A stretch of DNA of 64,000 nt. Source: Bacteroidales bacterium (GTDB lineage: Bacteria; Bacteroidota; Bacteroidia; Bacteroidales; UBA932). The stretch is taken from positions 1 to 64,000 of the forward strand of contig JAFYYW010000018.1 in assembly GCA_017548985.1 (NCBI GenBank), written 5' to 3'. Below, piece by piece: positions 32,425-61,719 of the stretch. Each line of letters starts with the position of its first letter. The stretch's first letter is position 1. The notes beneath the pieces were generated by a model. That model saw only the letters and a list, made by a program, of their open reading frames with translations, was not told the DNA's origin and did not search any database. Made by a program: the position numbers and the translations under genes.

Positions 32425-32432
32425 TAAAAAAA

Positions 32433-32529
32433 GGGAAAGCTTAGCACATCGCACCGCTACGACCTCCTACCCTTGCTGCCTTCCGACCCTGGGGGGATTT
32501 AGAGGGAGCTGGTCGTGTACGACTTTCCC
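32433..32529 (-). ncRNA. ffs: Signal recognition particle RNA, small (4.5S) type
   Basis: This RNA binds Ffh to deliver membrane proteins. On the minus strand, GGGAAAG at the 5' end pairs with CTTTCCC at the 3' end. The universally conserved apical domain (GGTCGGAAGGCAGCAAGGGT) is intact. A run of seven T residues directly follows the terminal stem and should act as the terminator. A -7-like TATATTCG lies just upstream. The ends are set from the closing stem and may be off by a few bases. Confidence 0.95.
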
Positions 32530-32543
32530 TGGACGCGAATATA

Positions 32544-52702: not shown

Positions 52703-55087
52703 ATGGAAAACATTGAGAAAGCTGTTTACGAGGGACTGAACGCGGAGCAGAGACAGGCGGTCAGCAGCATTGACGGACCGGTGCTTATAGTCGCCGGAGC
52801 GGGGTCGGGGAAAACGCGTGTGCTGACCAGCAGGATAGCTTGCATCATCGCCAGAGGAGGGGATCCGTCGAGGATACTCGCTTTGACTTTCACTAAGAAA
52901 GCGGCGTCTGAGATGAAGGAGAGAATAGCGGTCATGGTGGGCAAAAGGACCGCCTGGAAACTCCAGATGGGCACCTTCCATTCCATATTCGTAAGATTTC
53001 TTAGGGAGTATGCCGGTTCCTTGGGCTACCCCCCGTCTTTCACCATCTACGACCAAAGCGATTCCGTCAGCGCCATAAAGTCCTGTATCAAGGAGTTGCA
53101 GCTTGACGACAAGGTCTACAAACCCAAAGACGTGCTGTCAAGAATATCCTTGGCGAAGAATAATCTTGTGACCGCCACGGCCTACAGGAACAACCGGCAG
53201 GCGGTAGAAAGGGATATCGCCGGAAAGAAACCAAGGATTTGCGACATATTCACCCTTTATGCCGATAAGTGCCACAGGAGCGGTGTGATGGATTTCGATG
53301 ACATCCTCCTTAACATGAATATTCTCTTGAGAGACAATCCGGAGGCTCTTGAGGCGATCTCATCTCGTTTTGATTACATCCTGGTTGACGAGTATCAGGA
53401 TACCAATAGGGCCCAATATGTGATACTCAAGAAGTTAAGTGGTCCGGAAGGGAATATCTGCGTGGTCGGGGATGACTCCCAGTCCATCTACGCCTTCCGT
53501 GGGGCGAAGATCGAGAACATACTCAATTTCAAGAAGGATTATCCCACCTGCAAGCTGTTCCGTCTCGAAAAGAATTACCGTTCCACGGCGAATATAGTCG
53601 AGGCGGCAAACTCGTTGATAGCCAAGAATGAAGGCAGGATTCCCAAGAATTGCGTCTCTGTCGGCGGCCGGGGTGAGAAGATTTTGCTGATGAACAGTTT
53701 CTCCGAGCAGGAAGAAGCTATCAGGATCGCCTCGGAGATCATATCAAGGATGCGTTCCGACCATGCCCGCTATCAGGATTTCGCGATTCTTTACCGCACC
53801 AATTCCCAGTCCAGGGCTCTTGAGGAGGCGCTTCGGAAAAGGAACCTGCCCTATGTTATCTATTCGGGCAACTCCTTCTTCGACAGGGCTGAGGTGAAGG
53901 ATCTGATGGCCTATTTCAAGCTGGTGGTCAACATTCACGACGATGAGTCGTTCAAGAGGGTTGTGAATGTTCCTGCAAGAGGGATCGGTGACACAAGCCT
54001 GAACGCGTTGGCGACGATGGCCAGGGATAAGGGATTGTCCCTGTTTAAAGCCGCTTATCTGACTGATTTCGCCGATTATGGGCTCAAGGCTCCAGCGGTT
54101 GCCAGGATCCGGTCTTTCTGTGATATGATTGATGGCCTGGCCGCCAAGGCTGCCGGAACTGACGCTGACATCCTGGCTAAAGAGATAGCTGACACAAGTG
54201 GCCTGTATGCCCATTTCAAGGCTGACACATCGATTGAGGGGCAGTCCAGGGCATCCAATGTGGAGGAATTGGTGAACAGCGCTACACAGTTCGTGGAAGA
54301 GCGGCAGAATGACTATCTGCAGGAATACCTTGCCGACAGCGAGGTCGAGGATGTGACCCAGGTGGAGTATCCTGTGGTGACGATGGGGGATTTCCTGGAG
54401 AATATATCCCTTCTCTCCAACATCGACATGGAGGAAGGGGAAGACACAATGAACAAGATAGTTTTGATGACCGTGCATTCCGCCAAGGGACTTGAGTTCC
54501 CTTATGTCATCGTCGCCGGTCTCGAGGAAAACCTTTTCCCTTCCGGAGGGATGCTTGCTTCCCCCGCTGACATAGAGGAGGAGAGGCGTTTGATGTATGT
54601 CGCTATGACTCGGGCGAAGAAGGGTCTGTACCTTTCTTTCGCGAATACCAGGATGAGGAATGGCAAACATGAGTCCAATTCCCCGAGCCGTTTCATCCGT
54701 GAGATAGATCAGGAATATATCGCCAACCCTTTGAGGGACGAGGAACCGGACTCGGATGATCTGGTTTTCAGAGGTTTCGGCAGATCTTTCCAACGTTCTT
54801 TCAAGCCGAAGGTGTACAGACCTGAGCCTAAACCGTCTCCAGTCGCTCCGGTGACACGGGAATCTCTTCGGAACCGTCCTCTTCCGCCAAAGATTCCGGA
54901 TTCCGAGTTCACTCCGGTCCCGATGACCTCTTTGAGGGCGGGCCAGCGAATCGAGCATAACCGTTTCGGATTCGGGAAAATACTCGAGATCACAGGGCAA
55001 GTTCCCGATCTCAAGGCTAAAATCATTTTTGATGACTATGGCGAGAAAATTTTGCTGCTGAAATATGCGAAAATTCGTTTGGGATAG
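52703..55087 (+). CDS. UvrD/PcrA-type superfamily 1 DNA helicase
   Basis: This 794-residue 3'-5' helicase acts in excision repair and replication restart. Walker A is GAGSGKT (residues 32-38), motif II is VDEYQDTNRAQY, motif III is GDDSQSIYAFRGA, motif V is TVHSAKGLEF and motif VI is YVAMTRAKKGLYL. The C-terminal region ends in a tudor-like module (IEHNRFGFGKILEI) typical of PcrA. It ends right before the his leader promoter. Confidence 0.94.
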   Translation: MENIEKAVYEGLNAEQRQAVSSIDGPVLIVAGAGSGKTRVLTSRIACIIARGGDPSRILALTFTKKAASEMKERIAVMVGKRTAWKLQMGTFHSIFVRFLREYAGSLGYPPSFTIYDQSDSVSAIKSCIKELQLDDKVYKPKDVLSRISLAKNNLVTATAYRNNRQAVERDIAGKKPRICDIFTLYADKCHRSGVMDFDDILLNMNILLRDNPEALEAISSRFDYILVDEYQDTNRAQYVILKKLSGPEGNICVVGDDSQSIYAFRGAKIENILNFKKDYPTCKLFRLEKNYRSTANIVEAANSLIAKNEGRIPKNCVSVGGRGEKILLMNSFSEQEEAIRIASEIISRMRSDHARYQDFAILYRTNSQSRALEEALRKRNLPYVIYSGNSFFDRAEVKDLMAYFKLVVNIHDDESFKRVVNVPARGIGDTSLNALATMARDKGLSLFKAAYLTDFADYGLKAPAVARIRSFCDMIDGLAAKAAGTDADILAKEIADTSGLYAHFKADTSIEGQSRASNVEELVNSATQFVEERQNDYLQEYLADSEVEDVTQVEYPVVTMGDFLENISLLSNIDMEEGEDTMNKIVLMTVHSAKGLEFPYVIVAGLEENLFPSGGMLASPADIEEERRLMYVAMTRAKKGLYLSFANTRMRNGKHESNSPSRFIREIDQEYIANPLRDEEPDSDDLVFRGFGRSFQRSFKPKVYRPEPKPSPVAPVTRESLRNRPLPPKIPDSEFTPVPMTSLRAGQRIEHNRFGFGKILEITGQVPDLKAKIIFDDYGEKILLLKYAKIRLG

Positions 55088-55117
55088 TTGCGATTAATTG
55101 GAAAATACGTATATTGC
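55088..55117 (+). promoter_or_regulatory. Candidate promoter of the his leader
   Basis: TTG at 55088-55090 begins immediately after the helicase stop; 19 nt later comes TATATTGC, a one-step variant of the -7 consensus. A start near 55121 would leave only a few bases before the leader peptide ATG. Confidence 0.4.
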
Positions 55118-55125
55118 GGGCAGTT

Positions 55126-55173
55126 ATGATTATTAAGAATGCTCATAAGCACCATCATTCCCTGGCCTTTTAG
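55126..55173 (+). CDS. hisL: Histidine operon leader peptide
   Basis: A short frame encodes MIIKNAHKHHHSLAF followed by TAG. Four of the 15 residues are His, three of them consecutive (CAC CAT CAT), which is the hallmark of ribosome-mediated attenuation. The His codons lie inside the 5' arm of a pause hairpin, and a terminator sits between this frame and hisG. When charged tRNA-His is scarce the ribosome should stall on these codons and let the antiterminator form. Confidence 0.85.
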   Translation: MIIKNAHKHHHSLAF

Positions 55174-55219
55174 GTCTGGTAAGCGATGGTGTCTGTATAT
55201 TATCGAGGTGAAATGACAT

Positions 55220-55250
55220 CGGCTTGCCGGACAAGGCAGGCCGGTTTTTT
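55220..55250 (+). terminator. Attenuator terminator upstream of hisG
   Basis: A 9-bp stem CGGCTTGCC/GGCAGGCCG (one G-U) with the loop GGACAA is followed by a G and six T residues. It is the strongest intrinsic terminator shape in the his leader and lies just before the hisG start. Confidence 0.82.
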
Positions 55251-55254
55251 ATTA

Positions 55255-56112
55255 ATGAATATGTTAAGAGTCGCTATCCAATCCAAAGGGAGGCTGAACG
55301 AGGAAAGCCTCAAACTTCTCAAAGACGCCGGAATCGAAGTGGATGACACCAAGCGTAAGTTCATAGGCAAGGCATCCAATTTCCCGCTGGAATTGCTTTA
55401 TCTCAGGGATGATGACATCCCTGGAGTGGTCGCTGACGGTTCCGCTGACATGGGCATTGTCGGTTACAACGAGATCGCCGAGACCGGCGCGGATGTCAAA
55501 GTGATCCGCAAACTTGGTTTCGGTAAATGCCGCTTGTCTCTCGCTATTCCAAAAACAACTGATTATCAAGGACTTCAATGGTTTGAAGGGAAATCTATAG
55601 CGACCTCTTATCCATCTGTCCTCCGCGGATTCCTCCAGGAGAAAGGTATCTCGGCAGATATTCGTCAGATAATGGGCTCTGTGGAGATCGCGCCCGCGGC
55701 GGGCATAGCCGACGCTATCTTTGATATTGTGTCATCCGGAGGAACTCTCGTGTCCAACGGCTTGAAGGAGGTTGAGTCAGTCCTCGAAAGCGAGGCTGTC
55801 TTGATCTGCAGGAAGGACCTGCCGGAAGACAGGCTGGAGATCATGGACTCGGTGCTTTTCCGCATTGACGCCATTCAGGAGAGCAGGGGCAAGAAATATG
55901 TGCTTATGAATATTCCCACGGCGAAACTGCCTGAAGCTATGTCTCTCCTTCCTTCGATGAGAAGCCCTACAGTGATGCCGCTTGCCCTTGAGGGATGGAG
56001 CTCGCTTCATTCGGTCGTGGATGACTCTTCCATCTGGCAGACCGTCGAGGGGCTTAAAAGAATCGGGGCTGAGGGTATCCTCATCCTTAACGTTGATAAA
56101 ATAATCGATTGA
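55255..56112 (+). CDS. hisG: ATP phosphoribosyltransferase, long form
   Basis: HisG condenses ATP and PRPP in the first step of histidine synthesis. The protein is 285 residues and includes the C-terminal ACT-like regulatory domain (from about 210), so it is the hexameric, histidine-inhibited form that needs no HisZ. The opening LRVAIQSKGRL and the PRPP-binding region DIVSSGGTLVSNGL are typical. Starts at 55255 and 55261 (ATG AAT ATG) are both possible. An upstream in-frame ATG would lie inside the attenuator and is rejected. Confidence 0.94.
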   Translation: MNMLRVAIQSKGRLNEESLKLLKDAGIEVDDTKRKFIGKASNFPLELLYLRDDDIPGVVADGSADMGIVGYNEIAETGADVKVIRKLGFGKCRLSLAIPKTTDYQGLQWFEGKSIATSYPSVLRGFLQEKGISADIRQIMGSVEIAPAAGIADAIFDIVSSGGTLVSNGLKEVESVLESEAVLICRKDLPEDRLEIMDSVLFRIDAIQESRGKKYVLMNIPTAKLPEAMSLLPSMRSPTVMPLALEGWSSLHSVVDDSSIWQTVEGLKRIGAEGILILNVDKIID

Positions 56113-56115
56113 TAT

Positions 56116-57402
56116 ATGAGAATATATGTTGAACCGGACAGGATGCAATGGCCATCCTTGACAAGACGGGTCAGCCGTGACGACGCCATGTTGGACTGGA
56201 GGGTGACTGAGATCCTTAAGAGTGTCCGTGAAGGCGGGGACATCGCCTTGGATCAAGTTATCCGTTTCGTCGAGGGTTCTGCCCCGGACAATCTTAAAGT
56301 CACCCAAGAAGAATTTGACTCGGCTGAAGACCAGGTCCCTGAAGACCTTAAAGAGGCTATCAGGGTCGCGGCCCAAAGGATCAGGGCTTTCCATGAGAAG
56401 GAGATGCCAAATGATTCCGAGTGGGATGATGGCGGTGGAGTGGTTTGCCGTCGGAAATACCTGCCATTGAGGAGGATAGGGCTCTATGTGCCAGGTGGCA
56501 CCGCCCCTCTTTTCTCGACTGTCTTGATGATGGGTGTACCATCCTCTGTCGCCGGATGCCCGGAGAGGATAATTTGCACCCCTCCGGCGAAGGATGGGAG
56601 CGTTGCTCCCGCTATCCTGTTCGCCGCCAAGATTTGCGGGATAACCGATGTTTACAAGATTGGCGGGGCGCAGGCTATAGCCGCGATGGCTTATGGGACC
56701 GAGACGATAGGAAAGGTTGATAAGATATTTGGCCCCGGGAACAGATACGTCTTGAAAGCCAAGCAGATAGTTTGTCGTGAGGGGGTGGCGATCGACATGC
56801 CGGCCGGACCATCTGAGGTGATGGTTGTCGCCGATTGTACCGCCAGAGTGCCATTTATTGTCGCTGACCTTTTGTCACAGGCCGAGCATGGCCCCGACAG
56901 CCAGGTGATCCTGGTCTGTCAGGATTTGGCGATGGCTCGGGACGTCCAGCGTGAGATCACTGTCCGTAAAGCCTCGCTTCCAAGAGAGGAGATAGTTGAC
57001 ATGGCTTTGGCTGACAGCAGGATCGTGGTGTTCTCGAACTTGGAGGATGGCATTAGTTTCGCCAATGCCTACGCTCCGGAGCACCTGATCCTTTCGGTCG
57101 ATGATCCGGAATCGCTGGCATCTAAGGTGACCGCCGCCGGAAGCGTGTTCATGGGACATTTCTCTCCTGAGAGCGCCGGTGATTATGCCAGTGGCACAAA
57201 CCACATATTGCCGACGAAGGGCACCGCGGTCGCTTGGAGCGGTGTTGGCGTGGACACTTTCATGCATGCCATAACCTTCCAGTCGTTAAGCAAGGAAGGC
57301 CTTTCCAGGATTGGAGGGGCGATAATGACCATGGCTGAGGCTGAAGGTCTCCAGGCTCATGCGGAAGCCGTGCGTGTGAGACTTGTTGATGGAGGAGAAT
57401 AG
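56116..57402 (+). CDS. hisD: Histidinol dehydrogenase
   Basis: HisD oxidises histidinol to histidine in two NAD-dependent steps. This 428-residue zinc enzyme shows the metal-ligand and catalytic segments SQAEHGPDSQ, AYAPEHL and GDYASGTNH. It follows hisG by 3 nt. The stop lies 1 nt before the next start. Confidence 0.95.
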   Translation: MRIYVEPDRMQWPSLTRRVSRDDAMLDWRVTEILKSVREGGDIALDQVIRFVEGSAPDNLKVTQEEFDSAEDQVPEDLKEAIRVAAQRIRAFHEKEMPNDSEWDDGGGVVCRRKYLPLRRIGLYVPGGTAPLFSTVLMMGVPSSVAGCPERIICTPPAKDGSVAPAILFAAKICGITDVYKIGGAQAIAAMAYGTETIGKVDKIFGPGNRYVLKAKQIVCREGVAIDMPAGPSEVMVVADCTARVPFIVADLLSQAEHGPDSQVILVCQDLAMARDVQREITVRKASLPREEIVDMALADSRIVVFSNLEDGISFANAYAPEHLILSVDDPESLASKVTAAGSVFMGHFSPESAGDYASGTNHILPTKGTAVAWSGVGVDTFMHAITFQSLSKEGLSRIGGAIMTMAEAEGLQAHAEAVRVRLVDGGE

Positions 57403-57403
57403 T

Positions 57404-59059
57404 ATGGTACTGTCAGAAGTTTTGCTCCTCGCGAGGGAGAATATCAGGAATCTCACCCCTTATTCCACAGCCAGGGATGAGTACCGTGGCGAATTGGGAA
57501 TACTACTTGACGCTAATGAGAGCCCCTACGGCAAGGAAGGACTTAACAGGTATCCTTCCCGGAACCTCAGGGAATCGCTCATCTTGAAGATATCCAAACT
57601 TAAGGGTGTGCCGAGGGAGAGATTGTTCCTCGGGAACGGTAGCGATGAGACTATCGACCTGTGTTACAGGGTGTTCTGCCAACCGGGCAAAGATAATGCG
57701 GTGATGATCGCCCCGAGTTACGGGATGTATTCGGTCTGCGCCGGGATCAATGACGTGGAATGCCGCCAGATCCAGCTTGGAGAAGATTTCTCCCTGCCCG
57801 TGGAAGCTCTCCTGAACGCTTCCGACAACGGTACCAAACTGATGTTTTTGTGTTCCCCGAACAATCCCACCGGCAATGCCTTTCCCGAGAGTGACATCAG
57901 GCGTGTCCTGGACTCTTTTAAAGGGATTCTTGTCTTGGATGAGGCGTATGTCGATTTTTCCGGGGAAGGTTCGATGATGGGACTTCTGGATGAATATCCG
58001 AACCTGATCATCCTCCAGACTCTTTCCAAGGCTTACGGTATGGCTGGCCTTAGAGTAGGTATGGCTTTGGCTGACCCTTCCATAGTGGCCTTGTTCGATA
58101 AGGTACGTTATCCGTATAACATTGGTACGGACACTTTGCGTCTGGCCGCGGGAAGCATTAACCCTGAAAAAGTCGCTTCCGAGATAGGGATGATTAAAAC
58201 CCAGCGGGAGATTGTCACTGCGAGGTTGTCCGGGTTCAAATGTGTCGAGAAGATATTCCCGAGTGACGCCAACTTCTTGTTGGTCAGGGTGTCGGATCCG
58301 TTGGCGCTGTATTCCCACCTTCTCCGTGACGGGATCATAGTCAGGAACCGCTCCTCTGTCGCCGGTTGCGAGGGTTGCCTCCGTCTGACTGTGGGTACAC
58401 CTGAAGAGAACGTCAGGATGTTGAGGTCAATTGAGGCTTTCGAGAATCCTGAAGCGGTTGATAACGCTCCTGCCAGCGCGGGACGACGGGCGTGTCGGGA
58501 AAGAGTCACTCGTGAGACCAGGGTGCTGGTTGAGGCTGATCTTGACGGGAATGGCGAGTCCTCCATCAGTACAGGTCTCCGTTTCTTTGACCACATGCTT
58601 GAGCAGATTCCCCATCACTCTGGTATATCATTAAAGATAATAGCCGAAGGCGATCTTGACGTGGATGAGCATCACACCATGGAGGATGTGGCCATCACTC
58701 TTGGCGAGACCTTGTTGGAGGCCCTTGGGGACAGGAGGGGTATCGGACGCTATGGATTCGCCCTTCCCATGGATGAGTGTGACGCCTTTGTGACGATGGA
58801 TCTCGGGGGGCGTATCGATTTCAAATGGGATGTCGTTTTCACCAGGGAATATGTCGGAGACACTCCCACGGAGATGTTCAAGCACTTCTTCCAGTCGCTT
58901 TGCTCTTCGTTGAAGTGTAACTTGCACATTACCGCCAAGGGGGAGAACAACCACCATCTGGCCGAGTCCGTGTTCAAGGCTTTCGCCAGGACACTGGGAG
59001 CGGCTGTGAGGAAGGATCCTTTCAAGTATGATATTCCAAGCAGCAAAGGAGCGTTATGA
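57404..59059 (+). CDS. Fusion of histidinol-phosphate aminotransferase (HisC) and imidazoleglycerol-phosphate dehydratase (HisB C-domain)
   Basis: This single 551-residue frame encodes two pathway enzymes. Residues 1-346 are a HisC with all landmarks: DANESPYG, the N-x-P-T-G pocket and the PLP Lys at K209 (TLSKAYGMAG). A linker of about 20 residues follows. Residues about 367-551 are an IGP dehydratase with its manganese-binding repeats (DHMLEQIPHHS, DEHHTMED and ENNHHLAE). The usual HisB partner, the histidinol-phosphate phosphatase domain, is absent. The start has a GGAGGAGA ribosome-binding site 6 nt upstream. No ATG occurs in the linker, so a second, internal translation start is unlikely. 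Confidence 0.93.
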   Translation: MVLSEVLLLARENIRNLTPYSTARDEYRGELGILLDANESPYGKEGLNRYPSRNLRESLILKISKLKGVPRERLFLGNGSDETIDLCYRVFCQPGKDNAVMIAPSYGMYSVCAGINDVECRQIQLGEDFSLPVEALLNASDNGTKLMFLCSPNNPTGNAFPESDIRRVLDSFKGILVLDEAYVDFSGEGSMMGLLDEYPNLIILQTLSKAYGMAGLRVGMALADPSIVALFDKVRYPYNIGTDTLRLAAGSINPEKVASEIGMIKTQREIVTARLSGFKCVEKIFPSDANFLLVRVSDPLALYSHLLRDGIIVRNRSSVAGCEGCLRLTVGTPEENVRMLRSIEAFENPEAVDNAPASAGRRACRERVTRETRVLVEADLDGNGESSISTGLRFFDHMLEQIPHHSGISLKIIAEGDLDVDEHHTMEDVAITLGETLLEALGDRRGIGRYGFALPMDECDAFVTMDLGGRIDFKWDVVFTREYVGDTPTEMFKHFFQSLCSSLKCNLHITAKGENNHHLAESVFKAFARTLGAAVRKDPFKYDIPSSKGAL

Positions 59060-59646
59060 TAGCTGTGGTCAGATATGATGCCGGCAATGTCCTGTCGGTG
59101 GTGAATGCCTTGCGCCGGTGCGGAGTTGAGGGTTTTGAGCTAACCTCGGATCCTGAGAAAATCAAAAACGCAGACAAGGTTATCCTTCCGGGAGTGGGAG
59201 ACGCTTCAGTGGCGCTGGCCAGTCTGCGTTCCTTGGGTTTGGATCAGGTGATCCGATCCTTGACTTGTCCGGTTCTTGGGATATGTGTCGGTATGCAGGT
59301 CCTCTGCCGCTATTGCGAGGAAGGGGATGTGGACGGTCTGGGAATATTTGACGCTGAAGTCGGCCGTTTCAGCTTGGATGATCCCGATTTGAAAATACCC
59401 CATATGGGATGGAACCAACTGCGGGACATGCGGACTCCTCTTTTCAATGGTCTCCCTGACGGATCCTATGTGTATTTCGTCCATTCTTTCCGGGCCGGAT
59501 TGTCCCGTGACACCATAGCCACGACAGTTTATGGGACGGCTTTCAGCGCTGCCCTTGCCAAGGATAATTTTTACGGGACTCAGTTCCATCCAGAGAAAAG
59601 CGGTCATTCTGGAGCTTTGATAATCAAGAACTTCCTTGTGTTATGA
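59056..59646 (+). CDS. hisH: Imidazole glycerol phosphate synthase, glutaminase subunit
   Basis: HisH supplies ammonia from glutamine to HisF. This 196-residue class I glutamine amidotransferase has the nucleophile C77 (GICVGMQVL) and the His-Glu pair in TQFHPEKSG. The start overlaps the hisCB stop by 4 nt (ATGA), and the stop overlaps hisA in the same way. Confidence 0.95.
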   Translation: MIAVVRYDAGNVLSVVNALRRCGVEGFELTSDPEKIKNADKVILPGVGDASVALASLRSLGLDQVIRSLTCPVLGICVGMQVLCRYCEEGDVDGLGIFDAEVGRFSLDDPDLKIPHMGWNQLRDMRTPLFNGLPDGSYVYFVHSFRAGLSRDTIATTVYGTAFSAALAKDNFYGTQFHPEKSGHSGALIIKNFLVL

Positions 59647-60368
59647 TACAAATTGTTCCAGCCATTGACATCATCGGAGGGCGTTGCGTCCGCCTCAGCC
59701 AGGGGGATTTCTCAAGAGAGACATCTTATGAGACGACTCCTGTGGAGATGGCGTCTCGTTTTATGGATAATGGCTTCAGCAGTCTGCATGTGGTTGATCT
59801 TGAGGGGGCCAAGAACGGGAAACCAGCCAATCTGGACTCTTTGAAGGAACTGGCATCCTTGGGAGATGTCCGGATCGAGTGGGGTGGGGGAATCAAAACC
59901 CGCCGGGATCTGGACGCGGTTCTGGAGGCTGGAGCTTCCAGTGTTGTCCTCGGGACTTTAGCGGTCCGTAATCCGTTATTGTTCAAGTCTTTCCTTGATG
60001 AATACGGTCCTGACAAAATCACCCTTGGGGCTGATGTGCGCGGAACGAAGGTGGCTGTCGGAGGATGGATGGAAACCTCTGATGTTGATTTGTCCAGTCT
60101 GATAAGGTCATTCCTGCCGGGACTGTCAAGTGTGATCGTCACGGAGATTTCCAGGGATGGCATGTTCTCAGGGTCTAACCCTGTCTTTTTCCAGAGTCTT
60201 ATGGCCGATTTCCCCGAGGTGGTCTTCACCGCGAGCGGGGGTATAGGCTCCATTACTGATATCGAGGCCTTGGACAAGGCTCTTGTCCCGAGAGTGATTG
60301 TCGGTAAGGCATTGTACGAGGGAAGAATTAAATTGGAGGATTTGGCTCTATGGTCGCGAAGAGGATAA
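59643..60368 (+). CDS. hisA: Phosphoribosylformimino-AICAR isomerase
   Basis: HisA performs the Amadori-type isomerisation that yields PRFAR. This 241-residue (beta/alpha)8 barrel has the catalytic Asp D9 ([14 protein letters not shown]) and a second one in [10 protein letters not shown]. Phosphate-binding loops appear as WGGGIKT and ASGGIGS. It is coupled to hisH before it and overlaps hisF by 19 nt after it. Confidence 0.95.
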
Positions 60369-61108
60369 TCCCTTGTCTTGACGTGAAGGACGGCAAGACT
60401 GTCAAAGGAATCAATTTCCTTGGACTCAAGGAGGTTGGGGATCCTGTGGAACTGGGCGCTGAATACGCCGCCCAGGGAGCTGACGAGCTTGTATATCTTG
60501 ACATCAGCGCCACCTTGGAGGGTCGGAGGACTTTCACCGAGCTCGTCAGATCCGTCGCCATGAGGTTGGATATTCCTTTCACAGTCGGTGGTGGGATATC
60601 CTCTCTCGCGGATGCCGCGAGGCTTCTTGAAGCCGGGGCTGACAAGGTCAGCATCAATAGCGCCGCTTTGAGGAATCCCGATCTGATAGGAGAGATCGCC
60701 GGACACTTCGGCAGCCAGTTTGTTGTAGTGGCTATCGACGCCAGGACTATGGCAGACGGCCGGTGGCTCGCGACGACCCATGGAGGAAGCGTACAGACCG
60801 ACAAGGAGTTGTTCTCATGGGCGAAGGAGTCACAGGAGCGGGGAGCCGGAGAGATCTTGTTCACCTCGATGGATCACGACGGGACTAAAAAAGGTTATCC
60901 TTGTGAGACTTTCGCCGCTCTTTGCGGCAGCCTCTCAATACCTGTCATCGCTTCCGGAGGAGCTGGTAATGCTGAGGACATCGCTCAGGTTTTGACTGAG
61001 GGGAAGGCCGACGCGGCCTTGGCGGCGAGTATCTTCCATTATGGGGAAATCACTGTCCCAGAGCTGAAAAGGTACTTGGCGGACAGGGGTATAAAAGTCA
61101 GATTGTAG
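60350..61108 (+). CDS. hisF: Imidazole glycerol phosphate synthase, cyclase subunit
   Basis: HisF makes imidazole glycerol phosphate and AICAR from PRFAR and ammonia. This 252-residue barrel has the catalytic pair D11 (IPCLDVKDG) and the Asp in VVAIDART, plus the phosphate loops VGGGISS and ASGGAGN. The start lies inside hisA, 19 nt before its stop. Confidence 0.95.
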
Positions 61109-61119
61109 TATTTATTGAT

Positions 61120-61719
61120 ATGGAAAAGAAAGGAATTGATTTCGGCAAGAATCCGGGCGGTTTGGTTCCGGCGATTATCCAGGACGTGGACACAAGGAAG
61201 GTCCTGATGCTGGGTTATATGGACAAAGAAGCATATGAGAAGACTGTTGATAGTGGCCTCGTGACATTCTGGAGCAGGTCCAGGCAAACCTTGTGGACAA
61301 AGGGGGAGACCAGCGGCAATTTCCTTCACGTGAAAGAGGTTTTCGTTGATTGTGACTCTGACACGCTATTGATATTCGCCAGGCCCGACGGCCCTACTTG
61401 CCATAGGGGTACGGTCTCATGTTTCGACACACCCGACGAGGAGGGTTTTCTCGGCAGGCTGCAGCAAGTTATCCAGGGACGTCATGAGGAGATGCCGGAA
61501 GGACATTACACTACCCGCCTGTTTTCCGCCGGAGTCGCCAAGATCTCGCAAAAGGTTGGAGAAGAGGCGGTTGAGACCATTTTGGAGGCGATGAGAGGTG
61601 ATCGTGAAAGGTACATCTACGAGGCGTCTGACTTGTTATACCATCTCCTTGTGTTAAACGAGCAGATGGGAATCGGAATGGATGATCTAGAAAAAGAATT
61701 GTTGTCCAGGCACAAGTGA
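61120..61719 (+). CDS. hisI: Bifunctional PRA-CH/PRA-PH (HisIE)
   Basis: This 199-residue protein combines two steps. The N-terminal phosphoribosyl-AMP cyclohydrolase (to about 105) has the metal ligands in DCDSDTLL and GPTCHRGTVSC. The C-terminal phosphoribosyl-ATP pyrophosphatase has the helical KVGEEAVETILEA motif. It is the last gene of the operon. A histidinol-phosphate phosphatase (hisN or HisB N-domain) and hisZ are absent. Confidence 0.94.
   Translation: MEKKGIDFGKNPGGLVPAIIQDVDTRKVLMLGYMDKEAYEKTVDSGLVTFWSRSRQTLWTKGETSGNFLHVKEVFVDCDSDTLLIFARPDGPTCHRGTVSCFDTPDEEGFLGRLQQVIQGRHEEMPEGHYTTRLFSAGVAKISQKVGEEAVETILEAMRGDRERYIYEASDLLYHLLVLNEQMGIGMDDLEKELLSRHK

Follow-up and report, generated by a model that had tools for sequence, protein, structure and literature searches.

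A probable ribosome-mediated histidine attenuator upstream of hisG in a Bacteroidales bacterium

The his operon and its upstream region

We analyzed a window of 64,000 nucleotides from a Bacteroidales bacterium (contig JAFYYW010000018.1, positions 1 to 64,000). It carries a his operon on the forward strand, preceded by a short ORF rich in His codons and by segments that can form alternative RNA helices. The features are the following, with the evidence for each in brackets:

55088..55118, + strand: probable promoter (-33-like TTG at 55088 and variant -7 box TATATTGC at about 55110-55117)
55126..55173, + strand: His leader peptide ORF, MIIKNAHKHHHSLAF* (sequence; counterparts in relatives)
55150..55191, + strand: pause stem, 1:2 (folding; two-sided changes in 14 relatives)
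55174..55232, + strand: antiterminator, 2:3 (folding, retained pairing, arm-swap test)
55218..55250, + strand: intrinsic terminator, 3:4 (terminator scan; covariation; hairpins in relatives)
55255..56112, + strand: hisG, encoding ATP phosphoribosyltransferase and opening the regulated operon (matches to TIGR00070 and TIGR03455 above cut-off)
56116..61719, + strand: hisD, hisC-hisB(IGPD) fusion, hisH, hisA, hisF and hisIE (NCBIfam, Pfam)

Within the operon, a single frame (57383-59059) joins hisC to the IGPD (dehydratase) part of hisB; the histidinol-phosphatase part that hisB usually has is missing. The continuous frame was found in two of the 30 sampled congeners (G017 and G013), the other carriers keeping the genes apart. 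All matches to Histidinol-ppas (TIGR01656) were below cut-off; a HisJ-family gene that scores above cut-off elsewhere in the genome (G000:C33:214551-215318) could supply the missing phosphatase. A hisG match was present in 29 of 61 sampled genomes of the genus and in 50 of 120 of the family, with nearly complete genomes also among those without it, which suggests that histidine synthesis has frequently been lost. Elsewhere in the window, a tmRNA (1304-1702) and a Bacteroidales small SRP RNA (32429-32536), both on the minus strand, are ordinary.

The leader ORF

The sequence-only reading of this DNA had pointed to a 15-residue frame with four His codons before hisG, and the frame is indeed there. 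It runs from the ATG at 55126 to the TAG stop codon at 55171-55173 (ATG ATT ATT AAG AAT GCT CAT AAG CAC CAT CAT TCC CTG GCC TTT TAG), with His codons at 55144, 55150, 55153 and 55156. Four His codons in 15, placed before a his operon, make it a short ORF rich in codons for the operon's own amino acid, as in amino-acid leader attenuators. The leader begins 38 nt 3' of a UvrD/PcrA-like helicase gene that ends at 55087, and no Shine-Dalgarno sequence is apparent by eye 5' of its start. When the whole window was scanned for further leader peptides with a downstream T-run, the His leader alone was convincing; the eight other matches, rich in R, K or S, seem to be chance occurrences.

Three mutually overlapping helices

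The pause stem, the alternative antiterminator and the T-tailed terminator proposed in the same reading could all be located. In the pause stem, 55150-55156 pair with 55185-55191 and, further in, 55164-55167 with 55173-55176, the His codons making up the 5' arm. The antiterminator joins 55174-55184 to 55222-55232 by 11 contiguous pairs, with a second helix inside that extends the stem, and its 5' arm starts directly after the leader stop codon. As in amino-acid leader attenuators, an intrinsic terminator lies between the leader ORF and the first gene: its stem has 11 pairs (55218-55228 with 55235-55245) and is followed by a T-run (T6, 55245-55250), the tetranucleotide ATTA and the hisG ATG at 55255, so that the proposed spacing of 4 nt between terminator and hisG is exact. 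The sharing of bases between stems, also proposed, holds as well: 55222-55228 are common to the antiterminator and the terminator, and 55174-55176 to the pause stem and the antiterminator. Folding the region computationally, which had been put forward as a check, gave a minimum free energy of -47.2 kcal/mol, better than that of shuffled sequences (-33.2 +/- 3.6; z = -3.9), none of 200 being as good.

We then folded the leader in the states that an attenuator would pass through, assuming a ribosome whose footprint extends 12 nt past the first base of its A-site codon (energies in kcal/mol). With the RNA transcribed to 55234 and a ribosome at any of the four His codons, the antiterminator is the minimum free energy structure (-25.7). 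For the full-length leader, it is favoured for stalls at the first and second His codons (-38.8 vs -34.8 and -36.0 vs -32.1), whereas at the last two the terminator (-29.3) is slightly ahead of the antiterminator (-28.0 and -26.3), by 1.3 and 3.0, so that switching there would have to depend on kinetics. Once the ribosome occupies the stop codon, a single one of the 11 antiterminator pairs stays free and the terminator forms; in untranslated RNA, the pause stem together with the terminator is best (-43.0 vs -41.2 for the antiterminator). The modelled energies thus fit the attenuation states, except for full-length stalls at the last two His codons. By sequence and folding, the antiterminator would be reached upon stalling and would exclude the terminator, as in the class of amino-acid leader attenuators.

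Conservation of the leader and its helices

We gathered hisG upstream regions from matches in the genus, family, order and phylum and from the contigs of the genome. Fourteen loci with a divergent HisG (L261-L274), none of which has a His leader, were left out, as were near-identical regions and a handful of duplicates or sequences of insufficient length; 219 regions remained. The rule for a His cluster was an ATG-started ORF of 6-50 codons, within 300 nt upstream, with three or more His within six residues. Such an ORF is found in 174 of the 219 non-redundant Bacteroidota regions, compared with a mean of 2.75 (maximum 8) in dinucleotide shuffles and 3 on the opposite strand, and the same rule applied to any other residue gave at most 39 of 219. 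The His cluster of the leader is not due to chance. The peptide sequence outside the cluster differs widely among relatives.

Among the 45 regions without an ATG-started His ORF, a His cluster does occur in several, but in a frame that lacks a suitable ATG; in others, a different ORF stops no more than about 30 nt from hisG, which may therefore follow other genes in its operon there. The leader was found also in loci classed as same class and same phylum. From these sequences, the device can be traced through the class Bacteroidia, Bacteroidales included, and is conserved across the phylum.

A T-tailed, terminator-like hairpin (median -17 kcal/mol) is present in 168 of the 174 loci with the leader, 11 to 170 nt from hisG (median 35). 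The 2:3 pairing was examined by an arm-swap test, in which the segment surrounding and following the leader stop codon is paired with the terminator arm of its own locus or with those of other loci. Own arms pair more strongly (median -13.7 vs -9.8 kcal/mol for swapped arms; Wilcoxon p about 1e-22, n = 165 loci), a p value that is only indicative, since the loci are related and their kinship is uncorrected. The comparison with relatives that the sequence-only reading had called for was thus favourable: His codons, terminator and antiterminator pairing are all conserved far beyond chance. We considered whether the leader stop codon lies inside the antiterminator as a general rule, and found no support for it: the codon is fully in duplex in 29% of loci, against 24% with swapped arms.

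Covariation in the three stems, which had been suggested as evidence to look for, was found in two of them in an alignment of 14 close relatives. The terminator has 14 cells with two-sided changes, compared with 4.8 in shuffled alignments (0 of 500 shuffles as high), and the pause stem has 8 compared with 1.4, with two-sided changes in three pairs. No covariation above shuffles was found for the antiterminator among these 14 closest relatives: it is paired in 92.9% of cells but shows almost solely one-sided changes, as expected of arms that are bound by two pairings and nearly invariant. The case for the antiterminator as a conserved helix comes instead from its retained pairing and from the arm-swap test. 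Across relatives, conservation falls into blocks that coincide with the His codons and with the arms of all three helices.

A covariance model built from the leaders of the 14 relatives matches, in this genome, the hisG site only. Of its secondary matches in congeners, we looked at five. One of them (L283, G012:C75:5041-5198) is a Thr leader peptide, MRFNLTTTTTTTTGQFYWHG*, which together with a T-tailed hairpin stands before a homoserine kinase gene that we named thrB-like by eye; no Thr leader was found at seven other loci of the homoserine kinase gene in the genus. In the remaining four, a T-tailed hairpin is present without such a leader, and we read them as plain terminators.

The probable promoter

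The probable promoter lies in the 38 nt that separate the leader from the helicase gene. The match of the promoter scan at the site (TTGCGA-16-TATATT) is at chance level taken alone. The Bacteroidota -7 consensus is TAnnTTTG (PMC7366714), and exact copies occur within 80 nt upstream of the leader at 123 of 168 loci, against 9.7 in shuffles, with two favoured ranges of distance to the leader (about 4-10 and 16-22 nt). The variant box TATATTGC lies about 8 nt before the leader ATG, so the 5' untranslated part of the leader mRNA may be only a few nucleotides long.

Proposed mechanism and alternative explanations

We interpret the locus, with a probability of roughly 93%, as a ribosome-mediated transcription attenuator that would sense charged His-tRNA upstream of the hisG operon. 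The leader ORF would be translated while being transcribed. When His-tRNA is scarce, the ribosome would stall on the His codons and mask the 5' arm of the pause stem; segment 2 (55174-55184) could then pair with segment 3 (55222-55232), blocking the terminator and letting the his operon be transcribed. When histidine is ample, the ribosome would reach the stop codon at 55171, right against segment 2, and mask that segment, so that the 3:4 terminator would form. Without translation, the pause stem would hold part of segment 2, and the terminator would again be expected to form. The model implies coupling of translation to transcription, ribosome stalling and histidine-dependent read-through.

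The same parts could be read in other ways. The leader might act on translation, with the 3:4 hairpin hiding the start region of hisG and the antiterminator freeing it. In its favour, about 10 nt separate the end of the hairpin from the hisG ATG, the T-run stops 4 nt short of that codon, and attenuators of translation have precedents (mentioned in PMC9413887); however, the distance from hairpin to hisG varies widely in relatives, and the hairpin carries the T-tail that a terminator needs in nearly all loci with the leader, so we regard this explanation as very unlikely. If the hairpin instead simply ended transcription of the helicase gene upstream, and the His ORF were fortuitous, one could point to the end of that gene about 130 nt away with no other terminator-like site between. 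Against this stand the promoter motif in front of the leader and the recurrence of the His cluster across the phylum together with 2:3 pairing; this conservation in practice refutes the idea, to which we give next to no credence.

His-rich peptides can bind metal, and the short ORF might encode a functional small protein of this or another kind rather than a sensor. The wide variation of the peptide outside its His cluster, the T-tailed hairpin that follows the ORF in most loci and the Thr-rich leader likewise placed before thrB in a congener all speak against such a role, which we consider extremely improbable. For an uncharted riboswitch or T-box, sensing histidine or tRNA directly, we found nothing beyond the presence of structure. 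The conserved blocks correspond to His codons and three-helix arms, no relevant Rfam match to the leader was obtained at the gathering score in the window and 20 relatives, and neither the T-box models nor RF00514 (His_leader) matched the site even at E values up to 10; direct sensing is thus barely conceivable here.

Returning to the attenuator, a leader ORF that begins a few nucleotides after the transcription start, with no Shine-Dalgarno sequence, implies that the ribosome would have to load early. It is possible, although we put it forward tentatively and think it somewhat doubtful, that the leaders form a phylum-wide His attenuator family, without Rfam match, adapted to translation in Bacteroidota: a nearly leaderless mRNA without Shine-Dalgarno sequence, on which the ribosome would load soon enough to remain coupled with RNA polymerase. 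A His attenuator would also indicate, indirectly, that translation keeps close behind RNA polymerase in Bacteroidota.

Comparison with known systems

The mechanism proposed here is ordinary and already known; what is new is the Bacteroidales instance, which is unusually well supported by comparison. It would extend a classical attenuation device, with comparative support, to Bacteroidota, which are major gut bacteria and in which gene callers can miss leader ORFs of some 15 codons. Vitreschak et al. reportedly predicted some amino-acid attenuators in Bacteroidetes/Chlorobi in 2004.

In the transcriptome of Flavobacterium psychrophilum, a 5' element of hisG that is conserved in other Flavobacteriaceae and has no Rfam family has been described, and leader-peptide attenuation was suspected at amino-acid operons of this species, in the parts of that report available to us (PMC9723704). 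Our leader resembles that element in gene, phylum and lack of an Rfam match; in those same parts, however, conservation is given within one family and no three-helix switch is described, whereas here the device can be followed through Bacteroidia. His attenuators have also been described in Firmicutes (PMC9413887), including hisZ and hisS leaders (PMC2965389); they share a His leader peptide with alternative terminator and antiterminator, and differ in phylum.

The closest parallel in design is the enterobacterial his leader (RF00514), with its His-codon peptide before hisG, a pause stem containing the His codons, an antiterminator and a T-tailed terminator that follow the same logic. The leader described here would work like that family but is not filed in it, its covariance model giving no match at the gathering score in the window and 20 relatives, nor at E up to 10 for the site, and the T-box model of Rfam does not match it either. 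It has four His codons, whereas the Salmonella his leader has a run of seven. Unlike the enterobacterial leader, it has an antiterminator arm that begins right after the stop codon, a Bacteroidota -7 promoter motif and no apparent Shine-Dalgarno sequence.
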